Below, piece by piece: positions 35,610-50,197 of a DNA stretch of 64,000 bases; positions within the stretch are counted from its first letter, which is position 1, and each line of letters begins with the position of its first letter. The notes beneath the pieces were generated by a model. The model was given only the letters and a program-made list of their open reading frames with translations. It was not told where the DNA came from and searched no databases. The stretch is from Paracoccus homiensis (GTDB lineage: Bacteria; Pseudomonadota; Alphaproteobacteria; Rhodobacterales; Rhodobacteraceae): assembly GCF_900111675.1 (NCBI RefSeq), contig NZ_FOHO01000001.1, forward strand, positions 310,001 to 374,000, written 5' to 3'. The translations under genes and the position numbers were made by a program.

Positions 35610-36998
35610 ATGACCGACAAGAACAATCTTGGCCACCGCGAGATCACTTGCTTCAAGGCCTATGACGTCCGGGGCGAACTGGGCAAGAACCTGGACACCG
35701 ACGTCGCCTACCGGATCGGCCGCGCTTTTGCGCAGGCGCGGGATGCCAAACGCGTGGTCGTGGGCCGTGACAGCCGCGAAACCTCGCCCGAGCTGTCGGC
35801 GGCGCTGATCGAGGGCCTGACCGATGGGGGCGCGGATGTGCTGGATCTGGGCCTTGCCGGCACCGAAGAGGTCTATTTCCACACCGGTTTTCACGACACC
35901 GATGGCGGGATCGAGGTCACGGCATCGCATAATCCGATCAACTACAACGGAATGAAGATCGTCGGCCGTGGCTCGGCCCCGCTGGACCCGGCGACCGAAC
36001 TGCCGCCGATCGTCGAACTGGCGACGGGGGGCGCCTTCACCCCCGCCAGCAAGGGCAGCGTCACCGATTTCAGCCATGCCCGCGCCGATTACGCCAAGGC
36101 GATGGCCGATTTCGTGGATATCTCGGCGCTGCGCCCGATGAAGATCGTGGTCAATGCCGGGAACGGCACCGCAGGCCCGACCTTTGATGCCATTGCAGAA
36201 GAATTGCAGCGCCGGGGCGCGCCGCTGACCTTCGTGCGGATGCATCACGACGTGGACAGCAGCTTTCCGAACGGCATTCCCAACCCGCTGCTGCCGGAAA
36301 ACCAGCCGCCCACCGTCGAAAAGGTGCAGGCCGAAGGTGCCGATCTGGGGGTTGCCTGGGACGGCGATTTCGACCGCTGCTTCTTTTTCGACGAGAACGG
36401 GCGCTTTATCCCCGGCGAATATATCGTGGGCCTGCTGGGCGCGGCCTTCCTTGAAAAATCTCCGGGTGAAAAGATCGTGCATGACCCGCGCGTAATCATG
36501 AACACCCGCGCCATGATCCAGGAGGCTGGCGGCGAGGCCGTGGTCAGTAAGACCGGCCACGCCTTCATCAAGCGCAAGATGCGCGATGTCGGCGCGATCT
36601 ATGGCGGCGAGATGTCGGCGCACCACTATTTCCGCGACTTCTATTTCTGCGACAGCGGCATGATCCCGTGGCTGCTGATGATCGAATTGCTGTCGCGCAA
36701 GGGGCAGACGCTGGCCCAGCTGCTATCCGAACGGATGAAGCTTTACCCTTCGTCGGGCGAGACGAATTATCATATCGAGGACCCCGATGCGGCCATCGCG
36801 CGCCTGATCGACGCCTATGAGGCCAAGGCAGACAGCCGCGACGATCTGGACGGGGTGTCGCTCAGCTTCGGGACGTGGCGGTTCAACCTGCGCAAATCGA
36901 ACACCGAACCCGTGGTGCGCCTGAATGTCGAGGCCGATGGTGACGAGGCATTGGTGCGTGACAAGCAGGCCGAACTGGCCGCGCTGCTGAAGGGCTGA
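35610..36998 (+). CDS. manB: Phosphomannomutase ManB/CpsG
   Basis: Interconverts mannose-6- and mannose-1-phosphate (perhaps also the glucose phosphates), feeding GDP-mannose for polysaccharides. The 462-residue protein has ITCFKAYDVRGELG, the active Ser106 in EVTASHNPINYNG, the metal loop DGDFDR (251-256), GGEMSAHHYFRDF for sugar recognition and the phosphate-binding RKSNTEPVVRLN. The closest pattern is E. coli CpsG. It stands at the border of the polysaccharide region, convergent with the sulfotransferase gene. Confidence 0.93.
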   Translation: MTDKNNLGHREITCFKAYDVRGELGKNLDTDVAYRIGRAFAQARDAKRVVVGRDSRETSPELSAALIEGLTDGGADVLDLGLAGTEEVYFHTGFHDTDGGIEVTASHNPINYNGMKIVGRGSAPLDPATELPPIVELATGGAFTPASKGSVTDFSHARADYAKAMADFVDISALRPMKIVVNAGNGTAGPTFDAIAEELQRRGAPLTFVRMHHDVDSSFPNGIPNPLLPENQPPTVEKVQAEGADLGVAWDGDFDRCFFFDENGRFIPGEYIVGLLGAAFLEKSPGEKIVHDPRVIMNTRAMIQEAGGEAVVSKTGHAFIKRKMRDVGAIYGGEMSAHHYFRDFYFCDSGMIPWLLMIELLSRKGQTLAQLLSERMKLYPSSGETNYHIEDPDAAIARLIDAYEAKADSRDDLDGVSLSFGTWRFNLRKSNTEPVVRLNVEADGDEALVRDKQAELAALLKG

Positions 36999-37005
36999 TC
37001 CGAAG

Positions 37006-37027
37006 GGGCCGCGCGTCGTCGCGGCCC
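37006..37027. terminator. Bidirectional hairpin between manB and the sulfotransferase gene
   Basis: GGGCCGCG and CGCGGCCC form a perfect 8-bp stem around CGTCGT, placed in the 34-base gap between two converging genes and ending 6 bases before the sulfotransferase stop. Confidence 0.55.
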
Positions 37028-37032
37028 TTGTC

Positions 37033-38430
37033 CTATGGCGTTTCGGGAAAGCCGAAACTGACGAAATCGCGCTGATAGGCCTGTTTGGCGGCGCGGATCA
37101 GATCCGGCTGGTCCAGAAATTCGGGATAGGCCCCACCGGCCAACCGCTCCAACCTTGGGTCGTCGATGCCGGCAGCAGCGCATAGATGGGCCAGATCCTC
37201 GGACAACCGGCCTTCGCGCAACAGCATGTCGGGGGTGGAAAACCGGGCAAAACCCGCAATGACCTCGGTCTGGCTGGCCCAGTTCGGATGGGTCGGCAAC
37301 GAGGTCTGGCCATTCAGGGTGCGGCGCAGGAAATCCAGAAACTGCCCGAACACCCGCTCCAGATCGCTTTCCGACAGGTCGGCCAAGGCGTCATCGGCGG
37401 GCAGATCGACGCGATGGATATCGCGCAGGGTCTGGCGCAACACCGGCTTGGCCTGTGTCAGCAGGTGCAAGAACGCCTCCCATGCGCGATGCAGGGGATG
37501 ACGCAGGACGCTGAAGCTGCGATGCCCCGGATGGTCGCGTTTCCAGTGGCGCAGCGTCGTCTGGGTGAAATCGGCTTGCAGCGGGCCAAGGGCGGCCAGC
37601 CAATCAGACACCGGATCGTCGCTGCCGGCCTGCACCGGCATATAGATCAGGCCCTGCCCCGCGCCGCAGCCCTGAAAACTGGGCACGGCGGGTCCTCGGG
37701 CCGATTCGAAATTCGGCACCCGGCCCAGCCCAAAGGGATCGATCGCCTGCAAATCCTGCTGCATCTGCGAAAAATTGCGGACTTTCTGCGCCATCTCGCG
37801 CGGGTTCTGCGGCACCTGATCGGTGGCGGGGTTCACCCGGTCCAGATCGCGACGTCCCAGCCAGTGCAGCAGCCCCGTCATCACATCGGGATCGCGCAGA
37901 TCCTCATAGGCCAGCCAGAAACCCGACTGACCGCTGGTCTGCAACCGATGGGCGATACGCTGATGAAACCCTTCGGTTTCCGACAGCATCTGGCGAAATT
38001 CGGCACCGTCATAGGTGATCGCCGCCTCGGCCGGGGTTTCGGTTTCATTCAGTTTCCACTGATCGGTTTCCCAGGCCAGCCGGACCGAGACATAACTGTC
38101 CAGCGGGTTGCGCGTCAGGATGATCTTGGCGCAGCTTTGATCGTCCATGAAGGCGTCGAACACCCGCGGATCATGGTCGTGGAAATAGCGAAATCCGGGC
38201 AGATGCCCCGGCTTGTCGAACAGTTTCGCCAACAGGGCCATGGGATCGGCCTCGCGCGTTTCGCGGCTGATGCCCTGCAATTCCTCCTTGCCCGGCCAGC
38301 CCAGCATATAGGGGTTGAACGCCTCGCCAAAGCAGGTGACCCGTTTGACATGGTTCAGCGTCGCCTCCAGCAGGTTCGAGCCGGTGCGCATTCCGGCAAG
38401 GATCACGAAGCTGCGGAATTCAGTCGTCAT
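37033..38430 (-). CDS. Sulfotransferase, two-domain
   Basis: A 465-residue cytoplasmic sulfotransferase that probably moves sulfate from PAPS to a carbohydrate. FVILAGMRTGSNLLEATLN (residues 8-26) is the 5'-phosphosulfate loop and IILTRNPLDSYVSVRLAW the 3'-phosphate-binding part. In the C-terminal half, RSFSVLRHPLHRAWEAFLHL looks like a second 3'-phosphate-binding region, as in Sulfotransfer_2 proteins, without a recognisable first loop, so the protein may hold one active and one degenerate unit. It overlaps the preceding GT14-like gene by 11 bases. NodH-like labels in databases would refer to this family. Confidence 0.83.
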   Translation of the reverse strand: MTTEFRSFVILAGMRTGSNLLEATLNHVKRVTCFGEAFNPYMLGWPGKEELQGISRETREADPMALLAKLFDKPGHLPGFRYFHDHDPRVFDAFMDDQSCAKIILTRNPLDSYVSVRLAWETDQWKLNETETPAEAAITYDGAEFRQMLSETEGFHQRIAHRLQTSGQSGFWLAYEDLRDPDVMTGLLHWLGRRDLDRVNPATDQVPQNPREMAQKVRNFSQMQQDLQAIDPFGLGRVPNFESARGPAVPSFQGCGAGQGLIYMPVQAGSDDPVSDWLAALGPLQADFTQTTLRHWKRDHPGHRSFSVLRHPLHRAWEAFLHLLTQAKPVLRQTLRDIHRVDLPADDALADLSESDLERVFGQFLDFLRRTLNGQTSLPTHPNWASQTEVIAGFARFSTPDMLLREGRLSEDLAHLCAAAGIDDPRLERLAGGAYPEFLDQPDLIRAAKQAYQRDFVSFGFPETP

Positions 38431-40105
38431 CGGTGGGCTTTCCCTTGCTTGGCGCTGGCGGAGGCGAGATGTCCAGATCGCCGCCCAATCTGGGCCGAAG
38501 CCCGGAATTGCGCAACCGACGCAGCAGCGCAGCCAGACCCGACAGATCGCGCATCACGGGCAGATCGGTGACCGGCGCGGCCTCGGGATCGACCAGATGC
38601 AGCGCGGCGTTCAGGCAATCTAGGGGCCGGGCCAGAAAATCGCCCAGTTCCCAACGCAGGATCCGCGCCCGGACCCAGTTCGATTGCAGCACCTTCAACT
38701 GATCCAGTTCGGCGCGTTGCAGGATCGCGGCGATGCGGCGGATATCGTCAAACGGCATGTCGCTGTCGATCAGGGGAACCAGCCACGCGCCGGTCACCAC
38801 CGCCATCCGCGCATTGGGATCGGTGGCCATGTACCAGTTCAGCGCCTGATTGTCGCGCGCACTGAACTGAAACAGCTGCATCTGCGCGCTGTGCCGGATC
38901 AGCGAGGTCAGAAAACCCTGCGGATCATGGTCGCGCAGCGCGGGGCTATCGGACATCGCGCCCGGTCCGAAAGCGGCTTGATCCGCGAATTGCACCTGCA
39001 CCGGGTCGAACAGGTGACCATGCACCTGCGCCGCCACGCGGGGGGCCAGCCAGCCCTCGAACCCCGGAAAGATATCGCTGAACCCTTGCAGCACCGCATA
39101 GGGACCGGCGGTCTTGCCATTCTCGGCGTCCTTGCGGGGAAAGCGGCTTTGCATATGCAGGCCCGGCCGGCCGGTCACGCGGCGTTCGGCCCGGCGCTGA
39201 ATGATCCGGTCGACGTGATCGGGCCGGGGCGGCGTGGGATCGGTCAGCGCAACCTGTCGCGTTGGAAATTGCTGCAACAGGCCCGACGCCCCCGGCCACA
39301 GCTTTCGCGCGACGAAACAATGCGATTCGGCCAGCAGGGACGCCATATCGTCATACAGCAGATAGGGGCGCCCCTTGTGATCGAACTGCGCAAGGGTCAG
39401 CGAACGGCTTTCGATCCGGGCCGAGTGTCGCCGCGCCAGGGTCTGGAAATAGCTTTCGTCGGGGATCCAGACATGGCGAAAGAACCGGTCGAATTCGGCG
39501 CGTCGTGGATCGGTCAGGATCGCGCGCAGCGTCGTCGCGGTCAGGCACCACCATTGCGATCCCAGATGCGGGTTCACCCCGGCGGGCAGTCTGCGGCGAA
39601 GGCCCAGACGCCGCTGCAGTCTGACGCTGCGATCAAACAACCTGCGCCGCCGTTGCCAGTCAAAAGGATGAAAAAGGGTAAAGCGCTCTTCATGCAGGCC
39701 GCCCTTGGCCCATCCGGCCTCGCGGGCGCTGACGCTTTCGATATGGTCACGGTCGGGGTCGGCCGCCAGAAACGCCGTCATGTCCGATATCGGACGCAGC
39801 GGCAGGCACGACCCCGAGGCCAGATAGACATGCGTGCAATCGGGCCAGCGGTCGAACAGCGCCTGCGCGGCGTCCTGTGTCGCCTGCACCAGATTGAACC
39901 GCCCCCAATCGCAACGACGGCGCGGCGCGAACACCACCCGGTCGTCGCCCTGAAACGCCTGCATCATCCCGCCCGCATCGGATCGCGCATCGACATGGAT
40001 CGCGACCCTTGCGCCGCCATCGGCCCAGATCCGCGCCATCCGCGCCGCGACCTGCAGGTCGGCATGACACAGCAGAACCACCCCCAGCCGGACCTGCGCC
40101 GTCAT
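38420..40105 (-). CDS. GT14 'Branch'-type glycosyltransferase with C-terminal extension
   Basis: A 561-residue protein. Residues 1-250 resemble Core-2/I-branching beta-1,6-N-acetylglucosaminyltransferases and xylosyltransferases: VRLGVVLLCHADLQVAARMA, FNLVQATQDAAQALFD, THVYLASGSCLPLRP, HLGSQWWCLT and WIPDESYFQTLARR. The C-terminal half (from about 280) matches my memory of the Rhodobacteraceae DUF5928 region and ends in a Pro/Lys-rich tail. Cytoplasmic, no helix. Starts by ATGA overlap with the upstream GT2 gene, so it belongs to one polysaccharide operon. Donor and acceptor unknown. Confidence 0.8.
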   Translation of the reverse strand: MTAQVRLGVVLLCHADLQVAARMARIWADGGARVAIHVDARSDAGGMMQAFQGDDRVVFAPRRRCDWGRFNLVQATQDAAQALFDRWPDCTHVYLASGSCLPLRPISDMTAFLAADPDRDHIESVSAREAGWAKGGLHEERFTLFHPFDWQRRRRLFDRSVRLQRRLGLRRRLPAGVNPHLGSQWWCLTATTLRAILTDPRRAEFDRFFRHVWIPDESYFQTLARRHSARIESRSLTLAQFDHKGRPYLLYDDMASLLAESHCFVARKLWPGASGLLQQFPTRQVALTDPTPPRPDHVDRIIQRRAERRVTGRPGLHMQSRFPRKDAENGKTAGPYAVLQGFSDIFPGFEGWLAPRVAAQVHGHLFDPVQVQFADQAAFGPGAMSDSPALRDHDPQGFLTSLIRHSAQMQLFQFSARDNQALNWYMATDPNARMAVVTGAWLVPLIDSDMPFDDIRRIAAILQRAELDQLKVLQSNWVRARILRWELGDFLARPLDCLNAALHLVDPEAAPVTDLPVMRDLSGLAALLRRLRNSGLRPRLGGDLDISPPPAPSKGKPTDDD

Positions 40106-41124
40106 ACCCATCCCCCGCGCGACATCAGGCCCAGATCGTCCAGTTGCCGCCAGTCGCGGAATTCCTGCGACTGCGGGCACCACAGTTGCGTGCCCTGCGC
40201 CAGACCGGCGTGATAGGCGCGATATTCCTGACTGTTGGAATAGTGCTGGCCGCGCGACAATTCCTCGGCCGCCTTCTCGGTAAAGGTCGAGATGAACTTG
40301 GCGTGCAGCAGACAGCCCGAAATCCGTTCGCCCCCGTCCTCGTCATAAACGCGGTTCAGCTGATGCGGCAACAGCATGTGCGTCGAACTGACATAGGCAT
40401 AGCGCCAATGCCATTTCACAAGCGGGATCTTGTTCAGCGCGGGGGCGGCCACGGGATTGTCGCGGAAAAACGCCCGCGCGCGCGGACCGCCCTGAATCCA
40501 CAGATTGCCGAAATAGTCGTTCTTGCTGATCGTATAGCTGCCGGCATCGAAATAGCGCGCGATCTGCAAGGGATCGTCGCCCTCGGCATAGACCTGTTCC
40601 TCGATCCCGCCGTGCGGATACATATCCAGAAGCATCGCCGGAAACGACACCCGCCCCGAGCGATCCAGCCAGTCGGTCAACGCCCGCAGCGGACGCGTAT
40701 CGCAATGCGGATAGACTAGAAACTCGTCCGGATCGACGGTCAGGCACCAATGGCCGTGACCGTAACGCATCAACAGCCGGTCGATCCAATCCATGCCGAA
40801 CCGCGCAGCCTTGTAGCTGCCCTTGCACTGCCACAGCGACACATCGGGCTGATCGGCCAGATAGTCGCGGCTGCCATCGCTGCTGTCATTATCGACGAAC
40901 AGGAAATGCGCGACGCCCATCTTCCGATAGTATTCCAGGAAATAGGGCAGCCGGATCCGTTCATTGCGCTGCGTCACGAAGACCAGAAGATCGCCCTTGG
41001 TGATCTGCGCTGTCCGGTCCGCCACCGGTCGCAACGCCCGGCCCCGGTTCACCGCGCGGGCCAGCAAATACTGCCGCAAGGCGCGGCGGCGCGTTTGCCC
41101 CGACAGACGCAGGCGAAAGGTCAT
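40102..41124 (-). CDS. GT2-like glycosyltransferase, copy 1
   Basis: A 340-residue transferase of the Glyco_tranf_2_4 type. LLVFVTQRNERIRLPYFLEY opens the fold, HFLFVDNDSSDGSRDYL is the nucleotide-sugar region, and CLTVDPDEFLVYP carries the DxD metal site. Near the end, KIPLVKWHWRYAYVSSTHML and RISGCLLHAKFISTF are shared with the next gene. It is about one-third to one-half identical by eye to the 41131-42195 product, so the two arose by tandem duplication. Coupled to the GT14-like gene by ATGA overlap. Confidence 0.85.
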   Translation of the reverse strand: MTFRLRLSGQTRRRALRQYLLARAVNRGRALRPVADRTAQITKGDLLVFVTQRNERIRLPYFLEYYRKMGVAHFLFVDNDSSDGSRDYLADQPDVSLWQCKGSYKAARFGMDWIDRLLMRYGHGHWCLTVDPDEFLVYPHCDTRPLRALTDWLDRSGRVSFPAMLLDMYPHGGIEEQVYAEGDDPLQIARYFDAGSYTISKNDYFGNLWIQGGPRARAFFRDNPVAAPALNKIPLVKWHWRYAYVSSTHMLLPHQLNRVYDEDGGERISGCLLHAKFISTFTEKAAEELSRGQHYSNSQEYRAYHAGLAQGTQLWCPQSQEFRDWRQLDDLGLMSRGGWV

Positions 41125-41130
41125 GCCCTT

Positions 41131-42195
41131 TCAGCCCCGCTCTTCGGGGTGCGCGGGTTCTGTCTGTGCCCTTCGACCTTCACCGGTTCCCATCAACCCT
41201 AGCGCGACAAGCTGTTCCCAACCTTCGTAGCGTTGCGCGGCGGTGCTGTGCAAGACCGGGCCGGTGGTCAGTTCGCGATGATATGCACGATGCCGTGCGG
41301 GATCGACAAAGTGTTGACCGCGCTGCAATTCCTCGTCCGATTTGGCGGCGATCTGAGGCAGGAACTTGCCATGCAGCAACACCCCCGACAGGCGCGGATC
41401 GCCCGGACCGTCATAGCAATCGTTCAACCGCGGGGGCAGCATCGAATGGGTCGAATTCACATAGACATGCCGCCAGTGCCAGCGCACCAGAGGCAACTTG
41501 TTCAGCGTGGGCGACAGGTCGGGATCGTCGCGAAAGAACCGCTCGCGCACGCCGCCCTGCGTGATCCGGTTGCGGCGCGGCTGGACGATTCTGGTGCGAA
41601 ATGGCCCCGGCTGGAACCAGGGCAGCCGCGTCATCATCGGCGCATCGGGGCCTGCATCGGCGGTGCCAAGGGGGCCGGTGGGAAAAGGCTCCAACATCAG
41701 CGCGCCCATCGCCGGAACGCCCTCGCGATCCAGTCTTGCGGTCAGTTCAGTCAGGCTCTGACGGGGGTAATCGGGATAGATCAGCAATTCATCCGCATCG
41801 ACGGTCACGCACCAATGGCCATGACCGTGACGGAATTGCAGCGCGCCCAGCCAATCCATGCCGAAACGCGCGGCGCGATAGCTGTCGCCGCTGCGCCACA
41901 GGGACAGATCCGGCTGGCCACGCAGATAATCCGCGCTGCCATCATCGCTGTGATTGTCGACGATCAGGAAATGGTCGACCCCAAGCCCGCGATAATGGTC
42001 CAGAAATTCGGGCAGACGGTCGATTTCGTTGCGGATCGCCGCAAACAGCAGAATGTCGCGCGCCGAAATCTGTCTGGTGCGGTCGGACAGGGGCGACAAT
42101 CGCCGCCCCGCCCTGATACAGCGCCACAAAAGCTCTCGGCGTTTCCAGCGCGTCCGATAGGCAGACCACCGCTGCCGGAACGTCGCCGGGGCCAC
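41131..42195 (-). CDS. GT2-like glycosyltransferase, copy 2
   Basis: A 354-residue paralogue of the next gene downstream: ILLFAAIRNEIDRLPEFLDH, HFLIVDNHSDDGSADYL, CVTVDADELLIYP with the DxD motif, KLPLVRWHWRHVYVNSTHSM and RLSGVLLHGKFLPQI. The start appears to be GTG at 42195, two bases after the galE TAG, which gives termination-reinitiation coupling. It probably adds a different sugar in the same polymer. Confidence 0.84.
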   Translation of the reverse strand: MAPATFRQRWSAYRTRWKRRELLWRCIRAGRRLSPLSDRTRQISARDILLFAAIRNEIDRLPEFLDHYRGLGVDHFLIVDNHSDDGSADYLRGQPDLSLWRSGDSYRAARFGMDWLGALQFRHGHGHWCVTVDADELLIYPDYPRQSLTELTARLDREGVPAMGALMLEPFPTGPLGTADAGPDAPMMTRLPWFQPGPFRTRIVQPRRNRITQGGVRERFFRDDPDLSPTLNKLPLVRWHWRHVYVNSTHSMLPPRLNDCYDGPGDPRLSGVLLHGKFLPQIAAKSDEELQRGQHFVDPARHRAYHRELTTGPVLHSTAAQRYEGWEQLVALGLMGTGEGRRAQTEPAHPEERG

Positions 42196-42197
42196 GC

Positions 42198-43184
42198 CTA
42201 GGCCTCGTAGCTGCCGTTCTGATGCCAGCGCCAGGCGTCGCCGATCATCTGCCGCATGGTCGAGCGATCGGGCCGCCAGCCCAGTTCATCGCGGGCACGC
42301 TGGCTGCCGCAGACCAGTTTCACGGCATCGCCTGCCCGGCGGGGACCATCCTGCATCGGCACGGGACGATTGGTGACATGGCGCGTCGCCTCGACCACTT
42401 CGCGGACCGAAAACCCGTCGCCGGTGCCCAGGCAGAACACCCGGCTGCCCTTGCCCGCCCGCAGATATTCCAGCCCCTGCACATGTGCATCGACCAGATC
42501 CATGACATGCACGTAGTCGCGAATGCAGGTGCCATCCTGGGTCGGATAATCGGTGCCGTGGATGGTCAGCGCGGCGCGCTTGCCATCGACCGCATCCAGG
42601 ATCAGCGGGATCAGATGCGTTTCGGGGCGGTGGAATTCGCCCACCTCGGCGTCGGGATCGGCACCTGCCACGTTGAAATAGCGGAAGATCACATGCCGCA
42701 GCCCGTGCGAGGCCTGAAAGTCGATCAGCATATCCTCGATCGCGCGCTTGCTGGCGCCATAGGCGTTCAGCGGGGCCTGCGCGGTTTCTTCGTCCAGCAC
42801 CTCGCCGTCGCGGTCACCATAGGTCGCGCAGGTCGAAGAAAAGACAAAGTCCAGGCAGCCTGCGTCAATCGCGGCTTCGATCAGGTTCAGCGAGCCGCTG
42901 ACATTGTTGCGCCAGTATTTTCCGGGCTGGGACATCGCCTCGCCCACCTGGCTCAGCGCCGCGAAATGCAGCACCGCCACCGGACGATGTTCGGCAAAGG
43001 CCGCGTCCAGCGCGGCACGGTCCAGCAGATCGGCCTGCACGAAGGGGCCGAACTTGACCGCATCGCGCCACCCGGTCGACAGATTGTCCAGCGTGACAGG
43101 CACATAGCCCGCCGCCGCCAGCGCCTTGCAGGCATGCGAGCCAATATACCCGGCGCCGCCGGTGACAAGAACCGTCTTCGTCAT
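42198..43184 (-). CDS. galE: UDP-glucose 4-epimerase GalE
   Basis: Interconverts UDP-glucose and UDP-galactose with bound NAD. The 328-residue SDR protein has VLVTGGAGYIGSHACKALAA (NAD loop), Ser in VFSSTCATYGD, the YGASK catalytic Tyr-Lys and RYFNVAGADPD. Six bases separate it from galU, which supplies UDP-glucose. Confidence 0.95.
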   Translation of the reverse strand: MTKTVLVTGGAGYIGSHACKALAAAGYVPVTLDNLSTGWRDAVKFGPFVQADLLDRAALDAAFAEHRPVAVLHFAALSQVGEAMSQPGKYWRNNVSGSLNLIEAAIDAGCLDFVFSSTCATYGDRDGEVLDEETAQAPLNAYGASKRAIEDMLIDFQASHGLRHVIFRYFNVAGADPDAEVGEFHRPETHLIPLILDAVDGKRAALTIHGTDYPTQDGTCIRDYVHVMDLVDAHVQGLEYLRAGKGSRVFCLGTGDGFSVREVVEATRHVTNRPVPMQDGPRRAGDAVKLVCGSQRARDELGWRPDRSTMRQMIGDAWRWHQNGSYEA

Positions 43185-43190
43185 GTGAAC

Positions 43191-44087
43191 TTACTCGGCC
43201 GCGCGGCGCATCGAGACGACATCGGCAAGATAGTCCGAAAACTCTTCCCGCAATTCGTCGCGTTCCAGCCCAAAGGCCACCGTCGCCTGCAGGAAGCCCG
43301 CCTTGGACCCGCAATCGAAACGCTGGCCGCGGAAGCGCAGGCCGTAGACGCCGCGATCGGCCTCGATCTCATCGGCGATCGCGTCGGTCAGCTGGATTTC
43401 CCCGCCCGACCCCTGCTTCAGCTTGTTCAGGTTCTGCATGACCGTCGGCGCAAGGATATAGCGCCCGATCACGGCCAGATTCGACGGTGCCGTGCCCGGC
43501 GCCGGCTTTTCGACCATGCCGCGCGCCTTGACGATGGCACCCATATCCTCGGCCACGTCCAGAACGCCATAGGCCTGCGCCTTTTCGGCCGGAACCTCCA
43601 TCGTGGCGACCATGCTGCCGCCGGTTTCCTCGTAGGCCTCGATCATCTGCTGCAGGCAGGGCGGTTCGCCCATGATCACGTCATCGGTCAGGATCACGGC
43701 GAAGGGCTCGTCCTCGGCAACCAGACGACGTGCGCACCAGACGGCATGGCCCAGACCCAGCGCCTTGTGCTGGCGGATATAGGCAATCGCACCGGATTCC
43801 ATGTTGGTTTCGCGCAGCATGTCCAGAAGGTCGTTCTTGCCTTTCTGTTTCAGGCTGGCTTCCAGTTCATGGGCGTGGTCGAAATAATCTTCCAGCGCAC
43901 CCTTGCCGCGCGAGGTCACGAAGATGAATTCCTTGATGCCGGCGGCACGGGCTTCGTCGATCGCGTATTGGATCAGCGGGCGATCGACCAGGGTCATGAT
44001 CTCTTTCGGGATGCTTTTCGTCGCGGGCAAAAAGCGAGTTCCCAGACCGGCCACCGGGAAGATGGCTTTGGTAACCTTGCGGTTCAT
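43191..44087 (-). CDS. galU: UTP-glucose-1-phosphate uridylyltransferase GalU
   Basis: Makes UDP-glucose from UTP and glucose-1-phosphate. The 298-residue protein has AIFPVAGLGTRFLPATKSIP, the nucleotide-binding signature, then DDVIMGEPPCLQQMI and RFDCGSKAGFLQATVAFGL. I start at MNRKVTKAIF with GGG-type ribosome-binding bases upstream. An AT-richer 147-base gap before it probably carries the promoter for galU-galE and the transferases. No clear -35/-10 pair or RNA could be assigned there. Confidence 0.95.
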   Translation of the reverse strand: MNRKVTKAIFPVAGLGTRFLPATKSIPKEIMTLVDRPLIQYAIDEARAAGIKEFIFVTSRGKGALEDYFDHAHELEASLKQKGKNDLLDMLRETNMESGAIAYIRQHKALGLGHAVWCARRLVAEDEPFAVILTDDVIMGEPPCLQQMIEAYEETGGSMVATMEVPAEKAQAYGVLDVAEDMGAIVKARGMVEKPAPGTAPSNLAVIGRYILAPTVMQNLNKLKQGSGGEIQLTDAIADEIEADRGVYGLRFRGQRFDCGSKAGFLQATVAFGLERDELREEFSDYLADVVSMRRAAE

Positions 44088-44234
44088 GATGTCAGACCCT
44101 TTATACATTTAAAGTCACGGCGTGTTTGCCCACGGACAACACCCCAACGTCATTTTAGTTCGACTGACCATATCTCGCCAAGTCGACCCGGTAAATTCTT
44201 TTCATTTTCAGTCGCGAAACCGTCGCAAAACTGC

Positions 44235-45035
44235 TTAGTCGATGCCCATATCGGCCATCATCCGCTCAAGCCGTGGAACATCCTCGGGATTGTTCAGTTC
44301 CCAGAACTGACGCCCCCTGGCCTGCACCTCTACGCAAAGAACGCGCTGGCCACGCTCAAGAAAGCGAAGCTGTTCAAGGCCTTCCAGCTTTTCAAGCTGC
44401 CCCTCATCCCAGCCGGAATAGGCTCGCAGCGCCGCCGGGCGATAAGCATAGACGCCGACATGATGAAAGACCGGGCTGGGATCGTCGTCGCCGAATTCGC
44501 CCGCCGCAAAAGGAATGACTTCCTTCGAAAAATACAGCGCCTGCCGGTCATGGCCGAACACTGCGGTGGTGCCGCCGACGCGACCGGCCATGCGATCCGC
44601 GATCAGATCGGCCCGCATCCGCCCCGAACACCGCAGGACGGGCGTGGCGACCCCGGCCTGGGGCGCGTTGCGCAGACCCGCGATCAGATCCTCGACGAAC
44701 CATGCCGGGGTCAGGGGCGCATCGCCCTGCAGGTTGACCACGATCTCGGGTTCCGGGGCCAGTTGGCCCAGCACCTCGGCGCAACGCTCGGTCCCGTTGC
44801 GGCAGGCGGTCGAGGTCATCGCGACCTCGGCCCCGAATCCCGTCGCATGATCGGCAATCCGCTCATCGTCGGTGGCGACCAGAACCCGGTCGACACCGCT
44901 GACGGCCTTGGCCGCCATCCAGCTGCGCTGAATCAGGCTGAACGCCGCACCCGACGCGCCGCGCAATTCCACCAGAGGCTTGCCCGGATAGCGGGTCGAG
45001 GCATAGCGGGCCGGAATGACAATGGTCACCGACAT
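44235..45035 (-). CDS. kdsB: CMP-Kdo synthetase KdsB
   Basis: Activates Kdo with CTP for lipopolysaccharide or capsule linker synthesis. The 266-residue protein has TIVIPARYASTRYPGKPLVE, VLVATDDERIADH, VVNLQGDAPLTP (LQGD binds metal) and HHVGVYAYRPAALRAY. The start ATG at 45035 has AAGGA upstream and lies inside the last bases of cysQ. KdsB-like enzymes next to export genes are typical of ABC-dependent capsules, whose polymers sit on a poly-Kdo linker. Confidence 0.9.
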   Translation of the reverse strand: MSVTIVIPARYASTRYPGKPLVELRGASGAAFSLIQRSWMAAKAVSGVDRVLVATDDERIADHATGFGAEVAMTSTACRNGTERCAEVLGQLAPEPEIVVNLQGDAPLTPAWFVEDLIAGLRNAPQAGVATPVLRCSGRMRADLIADRMAGRVGGTTAVFGHDRQALYFSKEVIPFAAGEFGDDDPSPVFHHVGVYAYRPAALRAYSGWDEGQLEKLEGLEQLRFLERGQRVLCVEVQARGRQFWELNNPEDVPRLERMMADMGID

Positions 45036-45040
45036 CGGGA

Positions 45041-45838
45041 TCAATCCTTGACCAGAAGAACGCCCGGCGCATAGGCGATAAAGAACGGATTTTCAAAACC
45101 CTGCTTGCCATAGGCCAATGGGCTGTGATCGTCGAAGCGCACAACCTCGCCGCCCGCGCCACGCAGCACGGCATCGCCCGCGGCGGTGTCCCATTCCATC
45201 GTGCGACCCAGACGCGGATACAGATCGGCCTCGCCCGTGGCCACCAGACAGAATTTCAGCGACGATCCCGCGCTGGTCATGTCGCGCACGCCATAGCGGG
45301 CAATGTAATCATCCGTCGCCGCATCGCGATGCGACTTCGAGGCCACCACCATCAGGCCGCGATTGTCAGGCGTCGGGTTCACGCCCACCGGCAGCGTCTC
45401 GCCGGGCTGGTCGCCGAACGGCGCCCGCTCTTCGACCGAACGGCCATCGGCGGTGGTATAGAACAGCCGGCCCTTGGCGGGCGCATAGACCACGCCGCGC
45501 ACCGGCACCCCGTTTTCGACATAGGCGATATTCACGGTGAAATCGCCGCGCCGTTGCACGAATTCCTTGGTACCGTCCAGCGGATCGACGATCAGAAAGG
45601 TCGAAACCGTCTGATCATGCGTCGCGGCCTGTTCCTCGGTCACCAGCGGCACATCGGGAAAGGCCGCCCGCAGCCCCTGCGAAATCAGCGCGTCCGCGGC
45701 CTCATCGGCGGCGGTTACCGGGGAATCGTCGGACTTGGCGCGTACGTCGAAATCCTCGGCACCGTAGATTTCCATGATCCTGGCCCCGGCCTCCAGCGCC
45801 AGCCGACGCATTTCTGTCGTAAGTCGATCGAATTGCAT
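45041..45838 (-). CDS. cysQ: 3'(2'),5'-bisphosphate nucleotidase CysQ
   Basis: Hydrolyses PAP, the by-product of PAPS-using sulfotransferases and PAPS reductase, to AMP. The 265-residue inositol-monophosphatase-fold protein has LVTEEQ (Glu68-69), the metal site IVDPLDGTKEF (Asp85, Asp88) and EWDTAAGDAVL. Start MQFDRLTTEM has GAAGGA upstream. It overlaps kdsB and lies in the same region as a sulfotransferase gene, so a role in recycling PAP from polysaccharide sulfation is a reasonable inference, besides its general role in sulfur metabolism. Confidence 0.92.
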   Translation of the reverse strand: MQFDRLTTEMRRLALEAGARIMEIYGAEDFDVRAKSDDSPVTAADEAADALISQGLRAAFPDVPLVTEEQAATHDQTVSTFLIVDPLDGTKEFVQRRGDFTVNIAYVENGVPVRGVVYAPAKGRLFYTTADGRSVEERAPFGDQPGETLPVGVNPTPDNRGLMVVASKSHRDAATDDYIARYGVRDMTSAGSSLKFCLVATGEADLYPRLGRTMEWDTAAGDAVLRGAGGEVVRFDDHSPLAYGKQGFENPFFIAYAPGVLLVKD

Positions 45839-45995
45839 CCAGTTTTCCTTCATTCCGGGCACGGCCGGGGCGCCGTGGCGATTGTGCGATATGTCTTCCC
45901 CACTTATGATCGCAGGAGTTTGGCTGGGCAAGCACGGCCCGCCCGCCAAGCTGTCGCATGGGGCTTTCAAGCAACGATCGCAAAGGACCGCCGTC

Positions 45996-46817
45996 TTGTT
46001 CCAGCAGCGCCGCAACCAGAACATGCTGCAAGCCGCGGGCACGACGCTGGCGCTGATCTTTCACCAGACAGTCTACAACCTGCGCACGGAACATCGAAAT
46101 GCCATTGTCGGCATCCTGCTGACGATTCTGCAGACGGCGATGTTCATGGGCGCCTTCATGCTGATCTATCTGATCATCGGCATCAGGCAGTCCCCGATAC
46201 GCGGCAATTTCTTCCTGTTCATCATGAGCGGGATCTTCATCTTCATGACCCATGTCCGCACGGCAGGTGCCGTGTCCGGGGCGCATTCCGTGTCCAGCGG
46301 CATGACCAAGCACGGCCCGCTGAACCCGGCGATCCTGATAGGCGCGGCGGCGGTCACGGTCCTGTATCGCCAGACGATCAGCATGGCGGCGCTGCTGTGG
46401 CTGTATCACGTCCTGATCGAGCCTTTGACGATCGATTTTTTTCCGGGCGTTCTGGCGATGTATCTTCTGGCGTGGTTCTCGGGCGCGACGATGGGCCTGA
46501 TCTTTCTGGGCATCAGGCCCTGGTCGCCCCAGACCGCCAAGATCCTGACCAGCGCCTATCAGCGGATCAACATGTTCGCCTCGGGCAAGATGTTCGTGGC
46601 GAATGTGCTGCCCAACGCGCTGTTGCCGTGGTTTTCGTGGAATCCGCTGTTTCACATCAACGACCAGACCCGCGGCTTTGTTTTCGTCAATTACACGCCT
46701 CTCAAAACCGATCCCTATTACGCGCTTTGGTTTTCGATGGGCGCGGTGATTGTCGGGTTGCTGATCAACTTCACCACCCGCAAATACGAATCGATCAGCT
46801 GGACCGCCGGGCGATAG
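45996..46817 (+). CDS. Polysaccharide-export ABC transporter permease (KpsM-like)
   Basis: ABC-2 type permease of 273 residues with about six hydrophobic helices (for example IVGILLTILQTAMFMGAFML and LLWLYHVLIEPLTIDFF) and the conserved C-terminal WNPLFHINDQTRGFVFVNY. I recall very similar Rhodobacteraceae permeases starting MFQ, which here means TTG at 45996, with AAAGGA nine bases before; ATG 46023 is the alternative. Divergent from cysQ-kdsB. No ATP-binding subunit or outer-membrane partner lies next to it, so they must be encoded elsewhere. Confidence 0.83.
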   Translation: MFQQRRNQNMLQAAGTTLALIFHQTVYNLRTEHRNAIVGILLTILQTAMFMGAFMLIYLIIGIRQSPIRGNFFLFIMSGIFIFMTHVRTAGAVSGAHSVSSGMTKHGPLNPAILIGAAAVTVLYRQTISMAALLWLYHVLIEPLTIDFFPGVLAMYLLAWFSGATMGLIFLGIRPWSPQTAKILTSAYQRINMFASGKMFVANVLPNALLPWFSWNPLFHINDQTRGFVFVNYTPLKTDPYYALWFSMGAVIVGLLINFTTRKYESISWTAGR

Positions 46818-47022: not shown

Positions 47023-48945
47023 ATGTCCAAAGTTATCGGCATCGACCTCGGCACCACCAACAGCTGCGTCGCCATCATGGATGGCAGCCAGCCGAAGGTC
47101 ATCGAAAACAGCGAAGGCGCGCGCACCACGCCCTCGATCGTCGGCTTCACCGATGGTGAGCGTCTGGTCGGGCAATCGGCAAAGCGTCAGGCTGTCACCA
47201 ACCCCAGCAACACCGTGTTCGCGGTCAAGCGCCTGATCGGCCGTCGCATCGGCGACGAAGCCGTCGAAAAGGACAAGAAGCTGGTTCCCTATGACATCGT
47301 CGATGGCGGCAATGGCGACGCCTGGGTCGGTGTGAAGGGCGAAAGCTATTCCCCCGCGCAAGTCAGCGCGATGATTCTTCAGAAGATGAAGGAAACGGCC
47401 GAATCCTATCTGGGCGAAGAGGTGACGCAGGCCGTCATCACCGTCCCGGCCTATTTCAACGACGCTCAGCGTCAGGCCACCAAGGATGCCGGCAAGATTG
47501 CGGGCCTTGAAGTGCTGCGCATCATCAACGAGCCGACTGCAGCCGCACTGGCCTATGGTCTGGACAAGAAGGAAAGCAAGACGATCGCGGTCTATGACCT
47601 CGGCGGCGGCACCTTCGACATCACCATCCTGGAAATCGACGACGGCCTGTTCGAGGTGAAATCGACCAACGGGGACACGTTCCTTGGCGGCGAAGACTTC
47701 GACATGCGTATCGTCAACTTCCTCGCCGAAGAGTTCAAGAAAGAGCACGGCGTCGATCTGACCAAGGACAAGATGGCCCTTCAGCGCCTGAAAGAGGCGG
47801 CCGAGAAAGCCAAGATCGAACTGTCCAGCAGCAGCCAGACCGAAATCAACCAGCCGTTCATCTCGATGGACAAGGATTCGGGCACGCCGCTGCACATGGT
47901 CATGAAACTGACCCGCGCCAAGCTGGAAAGTCTGGTCAGCGACCTGATCAAGCGCACGATGAAGCCGGTTCAGGAAGCCCTGAAAGACGCCGGTGTCAGC
48001 AAGGGCGAGATCGACGAAGTCGTTCTGGTCGGCGGTATGACCCGCATGCCGAAAGTCATCGCGGAGGTGACCGACTTCTTCGGCAAGGAACCGCATAAGG
48101 GCGTGAACCCGGACGAAGTCGTGGCCCTGGGCGCCGCCATTCAGGCCGGCGTGCTGCAGGGTGACGTCAAGGATGTCGTGCTGCTGGACGTGACCCCGCT
48201 GTCCCTGGGCATCGAAACGCTGGGGGGCGTGTTCACCCGCCTGATCGACCGCAACACCACGATCCCGACCAAGAAGTCGCAGATCTTCTCGACCGCGGAA
48301 GACAACCAGAACGCCGTGACGATCCGGGTCTTCCAGGGCGAACGCGAGATGGCCGCCGACAACAAGATGCTGGGTCAGTTCAACCTCGAGGACATCCCGC
48401 CCGCACCGCGCGGCATGCCGCAGATCGAAGTGACCTTCGACATCGACGCGAACGGCATCGTCTCGGTTTCGGCCAAGGACAAGGGCACCGGCAAGGAACA
48501 GAACATCACCATCCAGGCATCGGGCGGTCTGACCGACGATGACATCGAGCGCATGGTGAAGGACGCCGAACAGAATGCCGAGGCCGACAAGGGCCGCCGC
48601 GAACTGGTCGAAGCCAAGAACCAGGCCGAAAGCCTGATCCACAGCACCCGCAAGTCGCTGGAAGAACATGGCGACAAGGTGGACGAATCGACCGTCGAGG
48701 CGATCGAACTGGCCATCGGCGCGCTGGAAGAATCGCTGAAGTCGGAAGACGCGGGCAAGATCCAGTCGGGCATCCAGAATGTCATGGACGCATCCATGAA
48801 ACTGGGCGAGGCGATCTACAAGTCGCAGCAGTCCGAGCCTGATTCCGCCGATGACGAGGCCGAGGAAGGCCCCCGTTCGGCCGAGCAGGACGATATCGTT
48901 GATGCCGATTTCGAAGATCTCGGCGAAGACAAGAAACGCGGCTGA
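47023..48945 (+). CDS. dnaK: Molecular chaperone DnaK
   Basis: Hsp70 ATPase that binds unfolded peptides. The 640-residue protein starts [20 protein letters not shown] and has [48 protein letters not shown] and the linker [18 protein letters not shown]. The C-terminus is acidic and ends [10 protein letters not shown]. Length is standard. Controlled by the heat-shock promoter at 46882; dnaJ follows after 76 bases with a hairpin in between. Confidence 0.98.
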
Positions 48946-48964
48946 TCCGGGCCGCACCCTCGGA

Positions 48965-48988
48965 CCGGCCCGCCCCGTTGCGGGCCGG
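48965..48988 (+). terminator. Hairpin in the dnaK-dnaJ gap
   Basis: CCGGCCCGC and GCGGGCCGG form a 9-bp stem around CCCGTT. Placed between the two genes it may lower dnaJ expression relative to dnaK (partial termination) or protect the dnaK 3' end. Confidence 0.5.
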
Positions 48989-49021
48989 ATTTCGTTCGGG
49001 GGTCAGTAAACAGGACAAGAT

Positions 49022-50197
49022 ATGGCGAAGCGCTGCTTTTATGAGGTTCTCGGGGTCAGCCGTGGGGCCTCGTCCGAGGAAATCAAGAAAGCCTACCGTC
49101 GCAAGGCCAAGGAACTGCATCCCGACCGCAACAAGGATAACGCTGCGGCCGAGAGCCAGTTCAAGGAAGTCAACGAAGCCTATGAGCATCTGAAGGACGA
49201 CCAGAAAAAGGCGGCCTATGACCGCTTTGGCCATCAGGCCTTCGAGAATGGCGGCATGGGCGGCGGCTTTGGCGGTCGCAGTGGCGGCCCTCAGGGTGAT
49301 TTCGGCTCGGCCTTTGCGGATGTGTTCGAAGATCTTTTCGGCGACATGATGGGCGGCCGCCGCGCCGGCGGCGGCGGGGGCGGACGGTCGCGTGCACAGC
49401 GCGGTCAGGATCTGCGCTACAACCTGCGCGTCGGTCTGGAAGAGGCCTATCGGGGCGTGCAGAAAACCATCACGGTGGCCAGCTCGGTCGCCTGTGAGGA
49501 ATGCGACGGCACCGGGGCCGAGGGCGCGACCCAGCCTGCGACCTGCCCGACCTGCTCGGGCATGGGCCGCGTCCGGGCGCAGCAGGGTTTCTTTACCGTC
49601 GAACGGACCTGCCCCACCTGTGGCGGCCAGGGCCAGATCGTCAAGAACCCCTGCAAGGCCTGCCACGGCGCTGGCCGGGTCGAAAAGGAACGCACCCTGT
49701 CGGTCAATATCCCGGCAGGCGTCGAAACCGGCACCCGCATCCGCCTTGCCGGCGAGGGCGAGGCCGGAATGCGTGGCGGTCCAGCCGGCGATCTGTACAT
49801 CTTCATCGACGTGGCCGAGCACGAGATCTTCCTGCGCGACGGCAAGACGCTGGCCTGCCAGGTCCCCGTCAGCATGGCCACCGCCGCACTTGGCGGCGAG
49901 GTCGAGGTGCCGACAATCGATGGCGGCCGGTCGCGCGTGAAGGTTCCGGCGGGCAGTCAGTCGGGTCGACAGATGCGCCTGCGCGGCAAGGGGATGCCCC
50001 CGCTGCGCCACGGTGCCGGCGCGAATGGCGAGGCTGGCGACATGCTGATCGAGCTGGTCGTCGAAACCCCGGTCAACCTGACCGCTCGGCAGCGCGAATT
50101 GCTGCGCGAGTTTCAGGAGGTCAAGGCTGACAACAGCCCGCAATCGACCAGTTTCTTTAACAAGGTCAAAGGCTTCTGGGACGACATGACGCGCTGA
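49022..50197 (+). CDS. dnaJ: Co-chaperone DnaJ
   Basis: Hsp40 that stimulates DnaK. The 391-residue protein has the J domain ([20 protein letters not shown], then HPD in [10 protein letters not shown]), a Gly-rich linker (about 76-125), four zinc-finger repeats [32 protein letters not shown], and the C-terminal beta domains. Complete type I DnaJ. Confidence 0.98.

Follow-up and report, generated by a model that had tools for sequence, protein, structure and literature searches.

A conserved gene block in Paracoccus homiensis and its relatives that may direct a sulfated, Kps-exported capsule

Introduction

Sulfated capsules associated with kps genes have been described in Cobetia and in Vibrio. 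The capsule of Cobetia marina KMM 1449 was chemically shown to be sulfated and its structure, with Rha2S, has been solved; its report describes a kpsETMD ATP-binding cassette (ABC) transporter, kpsSC, genes for the metabolism of 3'-phosphoadenosine 5'-phosphosulfate (PAPS; cysN/C-cysD-cysQ) and a sulfotransferase (PMC11766843). A sulfated capsule was also shown chemically in Vibrio sp. KMM 8419, for which a kps ABC transporter, genes for UDP-glucose and PAPS, and sulfotransferases are reported (PMC11641403). Here we analyse a stretch of 64,000 nucleotides from Paracoccus homiensis (contig NZ_FOHO01000001.1, positions 310,001 to 374,000; hereafter the window), in which genes for nucleotide sugars, glycosyltransferases, a two-domain sulfotransferase and a KpsM-like permease lie together at 35610-46817. 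By analogy with the Cobetia and Vibrio systems, a sulfated ABC-exported capsule in this organism would be of a kind already known.

The described systems nevertheless differ from the one studied here. The Cobetia cluster is reported to comprise about 70 genes in four regions, including rhamnose and GDP-mannose genes, and was compared within the genus Cobetia (PMC11766843), whereas the parts of the P. homiensis system are scattered in the genome and include a small glycan block that is found family-wide and contains the two-domain sulfotransferase. The Vibrio locus is described as having 80 genes, three of them encoding sulfotransferases, as varying between strains of the species and as lacking kpsC (PMC11641403). 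Within the same family, judged by name, the RcGTA-receptor capsule of Rhodobacter capsulatus (rcc01081-01086) is described with Wza/Wzb/Wzc export genes (rcc01081-01086, rcc01958-01960), its text makes no mention of a 'sulfotransferase' (PMC10218006), and on this description it was dropped as a candidate for the same locus. Paracoccus zeaxanthinifaciens subsp. payriae is described in a review as a producer of sulfated polysaccharide (PMC4189415).

An earlier note on this DNA had proposed a sulfated surface-polysaccharide locus, a product unusual in bacteria and an arrangement not previously described. Arrangements of this kind have precedents in Cobetia and Vibrio; we found no description of the block itself, of the two-domain enzyme or of their conservation across the family in the open-licence literature, in which broad searches covered the top-ranked papers only. 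The proposal itself stands as the best reading, with export of the Kps ABC type and its partner genes found in the genome, but its GDP-mannose part falls outside the unit. On the evidence of sequence comparison and predicted structure, we argue that the block probably directs the synthesis and export of a sulfated capsule of the ABC-transporter-dependent type, anchored through Kdo (3-deoxy-D-manno-octulosonic acid).

A divergent gene pair conserved across the family

The ten genes that the earlier note had named within 11 kb were all confirmed as open frames inside 35610-46817, but they do not constitute one operon, since manB and kpsM lie on the plus strand and the other eight on the minus strand. 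The actual unit has two divergent parts, with kpsM on the plus strand set against cysQ, kdsB, galU, galE, two family 2 glycosyltransferase genes (GT2b, then GT2a), a family 14 glycosyltransferase gene with a DUF5927 domain (GT14/DUF5927) and the sulfotransferase gene, in that order, on the minus strand; manB faces the sulfotransferase gene at the other end. The genes had also been described as overlapping in a series of ATGA junctions, which is an overstatement. There is a single four-base ATGA overlap, between GT2a and GT14; the GT14 and sulfotransferase genes overlap by 11 bases, and a TTGA overlap at kdsB exists only if that gene uses a TTG start.

Conservation was assessed across the family, taken in the wide sense of Rhodobacteraceae that includes the marine roseobacters, with 149 genomes representing 148 genera. 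The sulfotransferase had a match in 122 of these genomes (121 of the 148 genera), and 114 of the 122 matches cover 90 percent or more of the query. Among the other eight, those in G115, G147 and G133 are split or are fragments lying at contig ends, those in G001, G056 and G148 cover one half only, and that in G074 (E 1e-9) is probably not an orthologue. The 27 genomes counted as negative consist of 20 that were listed as such and seven taken as negative from their absence from the match table.

Gene order was compared in 100 loci, all selected for carrying the sulfotransferase regardless of their neighbours: 80 named loci, which are the best 80 of 572 relatives and in which Paracoccus is therefore over-represented, and 20 stretches from the family-genome matches. 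Where at least 9 kb of upstream flank was present, the order and strands kpsM(-), cysQ(+), galU(+), GT14(+), sulfotransferase(+) recurred in 84 of 85 loci, and in the exception (L040) kpsM lies just beyond the fetched stretch (G143:C9:42637-43410). The grouping thus exceeds chance. Among the same 85 loci, GT2a is present in 85, kdsB in 70 and galE in 68, while GT2b came out as the label of the best hit in 24 of 38 loci of the Paracoccus group as against 2 of 47 others; 40 loci carry two additional genes, one for a GT2 enzyme that lies between kdsB and galU and one for an enzyme of GT4 type that precedes GT2a. The gene for the GT14 enzyme stands ahead of that for the sulfotransferase in all 100 loci, at a spacing of -8 to +12 bases in 75 of the 80 named ones.

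Distances between sulfotransferases correlated with those between GalU proteins (r 0.86 for 68 loci and 0.53 for the 31 non-Paracoccus loci), which fits a block that has mainly descended vertically. Correlations over the same 68 loci were weaker for GT14 with GalU (0.61), GT14 with CysQ (0.44) and KpsM with GalU (0.56), so that exchange of single genes may have occurred.

What lies beyond the sulfotransferase gene differs between genera. With at least 4.5 kb of downstream flank, manB adjoins the sulfotransferase gene in none of 53 loci outside the Paracoccus group, as against 22 of 43 within it, and the GDP-mannose path was accordingly dropped from the locus. Downstream of the 53 non-Paracoccus blocks are ptsN (49 loci), hpf (49), lptB (50), lptA (49), lptC (45) and kdsD (31), the lpt genes and kdsD being on the opposite strand and facing the block in the loci listed; such a ptsN-hpf-lptB-lptA-lptC(-kdsD) run faces the block in L099, L101, L104, L107 and L115. 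None of the 43 Paracoccus-group loci has lptA, lptC or kdsD next to the block. Because the run is usual outside Paracoccus and not adjacent to the block within it, a rearrangement appears to set this genus apart.

The two-domain sulfotransferase and its GT14 partner

The sulfotransferase gene (37033..38430, minus strand) encodes a protein whose predicted model (pLDDT 87.4, pTM 0.53) has two alpha/beta parts. Residues 3-232 adopt a PAPS-type fold and align with Stf0 (1tex) at Z 13.2 over 198 residues (root-mean-square deviation 4.0), and the N-terminal half also aligns with other PAPS enzymes by structure comparison. By profile, residues 7-152 match 9vki, annotated as 'LPS sulfotransferase NodH', with an E value of 4e-11. 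While the likeness to these Stf0/NodH-type enzymes extends to the fold of the first region and the profile of the second, their chains are of single-domain size (about 240-264 residues), and the window enzyme carries in addition a fused, conserved second half resembling Sulfotransfer_2. Foldseek gave the two-part model as a whole only modest scores (best E 7e-4), and the structure comparison that aligned Stf0 barely probed the C-terminal half.

An alignment was made of the window protein and those of 36 of the 80 named loci (n=37). The locus L116 was excluded for its broken frame, which ends after 155 residues (L116:10001-10465) on a metagenome-assembled contig, through a frameshift or a sequencing error. 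In the N-terminal domain, all 37 proteins share R15-T-G-S-N19, R107 and S115 without exception. We take the first motif to be the 5'-phosphosulfate loop and the two single residues to form the 3'-phosphate site.

The second half is degenerate by comparison. Residues 296-461 of the window protein match Sulfotransfer_2, as did 27 of the 37 whole proteins at E values up to 1 (best 2.6e-7). Of the 37 proteins, 35 retain R310, but the site eight residues further along, occupied by serine in the N-terminal half, is serine in just three, and no conserved loop was seen across the 37 proteins; for these reasons we take the C-terminal half to be a non-catalytic or acceptor-binding part. An internal duplication was considered and found unsupported, the profile comparison of the two halves giving a probability of 6 percent.

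Pfam scores for the protein are marginal (PF13469, 20.3 bits against a cut-off of 27, in the N-terminal half; PF03567, 22.3 against 22, in the C-terminal half), and no NCBIfam model matched at E 0.01. With its predicted catalytic half below the Pfam cut-off and no NCBIfam model, the enzyme can be missed by domain surveys. Among 385 genomes of the class searched at E 1e-10, full-length matches occurred in five, all of the same family, and two further matches were confined to the N-terminal domain. No signal peptide was seen by eye, with no predictor run, and the protein starts directly with its first strand, so that we place it in the cytoplasm. A second sulfotransferase, G000:C10:254097-254744 (L001; PF00685, 34.9 bits, cut-off 22), is encoded on the same contig at a distance of about 92 kb and may be a further user of PAPS.

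The GT14 gene (38420..40105, minus strand) encodes a glycosyltransferase of the Core-2/I-branching type (51 bits against a cut-off of 23.4 for Pfam Branch) that carries DUF5927 in its C-terminal part (353.9 bits), and was aligned with the proteins of 39 of the 80 named loci. Its residues 1-287 share the fold of C2GnT-L (Z 26.1 over 269 residues) and xylosyltransferase 1 (XYLT1; Z 24.3 over 266), from which the partner enzyme is predicted to be of core-2/xylosyltransferase type; where the two reference enzymes have animal parts, the window protein has DUF5927. This domain (PF19349, window 38420-39300) was found in five of the 385 class genomes, all in the same family. The structure search probed little beyond residue 298, and hence little of DUF5927, and the idea of a hidden sulfotransferase or second glycosyltransferase domain there was dropped at profile probabilities of 3.3, 0.6 and 0.1 percent.

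Kps and PAPS genes elsewhere in the genome

Homologues of every Kps component and genes for PAPS synthesis are present in the genome. The earlier note had proposed a search for cognate KpsT and KpsD/E, and KpsT-like, KpsE-like, Poly_export, KpsS and KpsC proteins were all located outside the window. The KpsE-like protein (G000:C26, L156:6121-7866) scored 172.1 bits against TIGR01010 (cut-off 437.5), and its frame overlaps that of a KpsT-like ATPase (L156:7850-8503), for which VexC was the best model (109.4 bits, cut-off 313). On contig C19, the genes for KpsS (L141:9671-11014), a Poly_export/SLBB protein (L141:11059-12240; PF02563, 60 bits, cut-off 28) and KpsC (L141:12104-14254) lie side by side. 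The pair of KpsC/KpsS Kdo transferases matched PF05159 (179.3 and 200.7 bits, cut-off 20), and KpsS reached 210.1 bits with its NCBIfam model (cut-off 600). The single KpsM match in the genome is that in the window. CysD and CysNC are present, the adenosine 5'-phosphosulfate (APS) kinase domain of CysNC matching PF01583 at 235.2 bits (cut-off 21.1). For CysH, NCBIfam leans towards the APS over the PAPS type (183.8 vs 148.8 bits, both below cut-off), which, if true, would free PAPS for sulfation.

Across the 149 family genomes, PF05159 (KpsC/S) was found in 138, and all 11 genomes without it also lack the sulfotransferase (Fisher p 9e-10, kinship ignored), so that the sulfotransferase occurs only where KpsC/S is found. 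A KpsM match was present in 129 genomes and, again ignoring kinship, in 120 of the 122 sulfotransferase-positive ones; the two positives without it, G028 and G098, are 86 and 84 percent complete. Of the 27 sulfotransferase-negative genomes, 18 have no KpsM. Four named genomes chosen for carrying the block all have PF05159, among them Paracoccus kondratievae BJQ0001 (L074) and Sulfitobacter delicatus DSM 16477 (L123).

Other genes of the window

Genes of the window were checked as open frames and scored against Pfam and NCBIfam cut-offs, by which the names given in the earlier note were upheld, several of them with scores just or well under the NCBIfam values. On the minus strand, cysQ (45041..45838) encodes a 3'(2'),5'-bisphosphate nucleotidase (TIGR01331, 268.5 bits, cut-off 228.8). 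The CMP-Kdo synthetase gene kdsB (44235..45035, with a possible alternative TTG start at 45044) is well over the cut-off of the subfamily model NF003950 (341.3 bits against 234) and just under that of TIGR00466 (154.4 against 155.2). Next come galU for UTP-glucose-1-phosphate uridylyltransferase (43191..44087, or from an alternative upstream start at 44108; TIGR01099, 326.1 bits, just under the cut-off of 326.8) and galE for UDP-glucose 4-epimerase (42198..43184; TIGR01179, 402.3 bits, cut-off 262.3). GT2b (41131..42195) and GT2a (40102..41124) both match Glyco_tranf_2_4 of Pfam.

On the plus strand, the kpsM-like gene (46023..46817) encodes an ABC-2 permease that had no Pfam match and fell far below the cut-offs of its NCBIfam models (VexB, E 9e-11; KpsM, E 1e-8). 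A start at 46023 (264 residues) is more likely than one at 45774, since the frames of relatives often have 273-274 residues (L097, L099, L114, L123; others are longer). Adjoining it at 47023-50197 are two frames identified by eye, dnaK and one resembling dnaJ; dnaK is also near kpsM in 16 of 47 non-Paracoccus loci, from which this neighbourhood may be old. At the far end, manB (35610..36998, plus strand), a neighbour in some Paracoccus only, encodes a phosphomannomutase of the manB/cpsG type that exceeds all four Pfam PGM_PMM cut-offs and scored 565.5 bits with its NCBIfam model (cut-off 801).

Proposed pathway and alternatives

In the pathway that we favour, GalU and GalE would supply UDP-glucose and UDP-galactose, and KdsB would supply CMP-Kdo for a Kdo linker laid on phospholipid by KpsS and KpsC, as these two enzymes are reported to do in such systems (PMC12220298). 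The two GT2 enzymes and the GT14/DUF5927 enzyme would assemble the glycan in the cytoplasm, where the two-domain sulfotransferase, its gene overlapping that of the GT14 enzyme, would add sulfate to it from PAPS made by CysD and CysNC, and CysQ would clear 3'-phosphoadenosine 5'-phosphate, the by-product of sulfation. KpsM, together with KpsT and KpsE from another contig and the Poly_export protein, would then carry the polymer out. A candidate gene exists for each step, the chemistry and the order of the steps being inferred from gene content.

Several observations weigh against this pathway. The CMP-Kdo gene that the earlier note had counted among the precursors is present but is no proof of a capsule: kdsB is the sole CTP_transf_3 match over cut-off in the genome, and as a single copy it presumably also serves lipopolysaccharide (LPS). 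Outside Paracoccus the block faces LPS/Kdo genes (ptsN-hpf-lptB-lptA-lptC-kdsD), which would fit sulfated LPS too. KpsC had no NCBIfam match, KpsM, KpsE, KpsT and KpsS are all under their NCBIfam cut-offs, and the Kps genes are found on other contigs, which leaves co-occurrence as their link to the block. Furthermore, 16 of the 27 sulfotransferase-negative genomes still have KpsC/S, and four of these (G057, G119, G122, G142) have a strong KpsM match, which implies a further task for the export system. A search for APS kinase, with part of the candidates scored, gave a match in 21 of the 27 negatives as well as in 116 of the 122 positives; since it does not track the sulfotransferase, it was dropped as a discriminating marker.

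The main rival to a sulfated capsule is sulfated LPS, in which the sulfate acceptor would be the LPS core or a short O-chain, the glycosyltransferases and sulfotransferase would decorate LPS, and the neighbouring KpsM would have another task. The lptB, lptA, lptC and, often, kdsD genes that follow the block outside Paracoccus point that way, but they lie on the opposite strand, and in Paracoccus lptA, lptC and kdsD are absent from its side. The single kdsB, presumably needed for LPS, and the name of the best PDB relative by profile would also suit LPS; against these stand the retention of kpsM in all but one of the full-flank loci and the confinement of the sulfotransferase to genomes with KpsC/S. 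We therefore regard sulfated LPS as unlikely.

It is improbable that the capsule is unsulfated and the sulfotransferase-like protein a non-catalytic scaffold or regulator. The marginal Pfam scores and a C-terminal half that has no conserved loop and mostly lacks the serine after R310 would agree with such a role, but the cofactor motifs of the N-terminal domain are invariant. Quite improbable, too, is a glycolipid or small molecule as substrate, for although Stf0, the closest fold in the structure search, acts on trehalose, the sulfotransferase gene sits inside a block of nucleotide-sugar and glycosyltransferase genes and follows that for GT14 wherever it was compared, in most named loci at close spacing. 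That housekeeping sugar genes came to lie together by chance and share no product, as the general cellular roles of galU, kdsB and cysQ might suggest, is very improbable given that order and strand are kept across several genera while the genes beyond differ (manB or ptsN/lpt).

Significance

The sulfated, Kps-exported capsule thus remains our preferred reading, and the conservation of its block across the family is what the earlier reading of the sequence alone could not see. In capsule loci the genes for sugar assembly are as a rule those that vary, as stated for group III clusters (PMC11766843); what surprises here is that these very genes are kept from genus to genus. It is possible, if on balance doubtful, that the family as a whole has one ancestral, vertically inherited sulfated capsule, with assembly and sulfation genes conserved beyond the exporter. 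The product would then be a glycosaminoglycan-like surface polymer, whose synthesis would involve the GT14/DUF5927 enzyme, with its xylosyltransferase and core-2 relatives, and the sulfotransferase of two domains, found in the class sample in this family only. The block offers a small, testable gene set. Should its product carry sulfate, a single sulfated surface glycan would be common to a family abundant in the sea and in soil, and this would bear on recognition by phages and predators, on attachment to algae, on metal binding and on the sources of marine sulfated polysaccharides.

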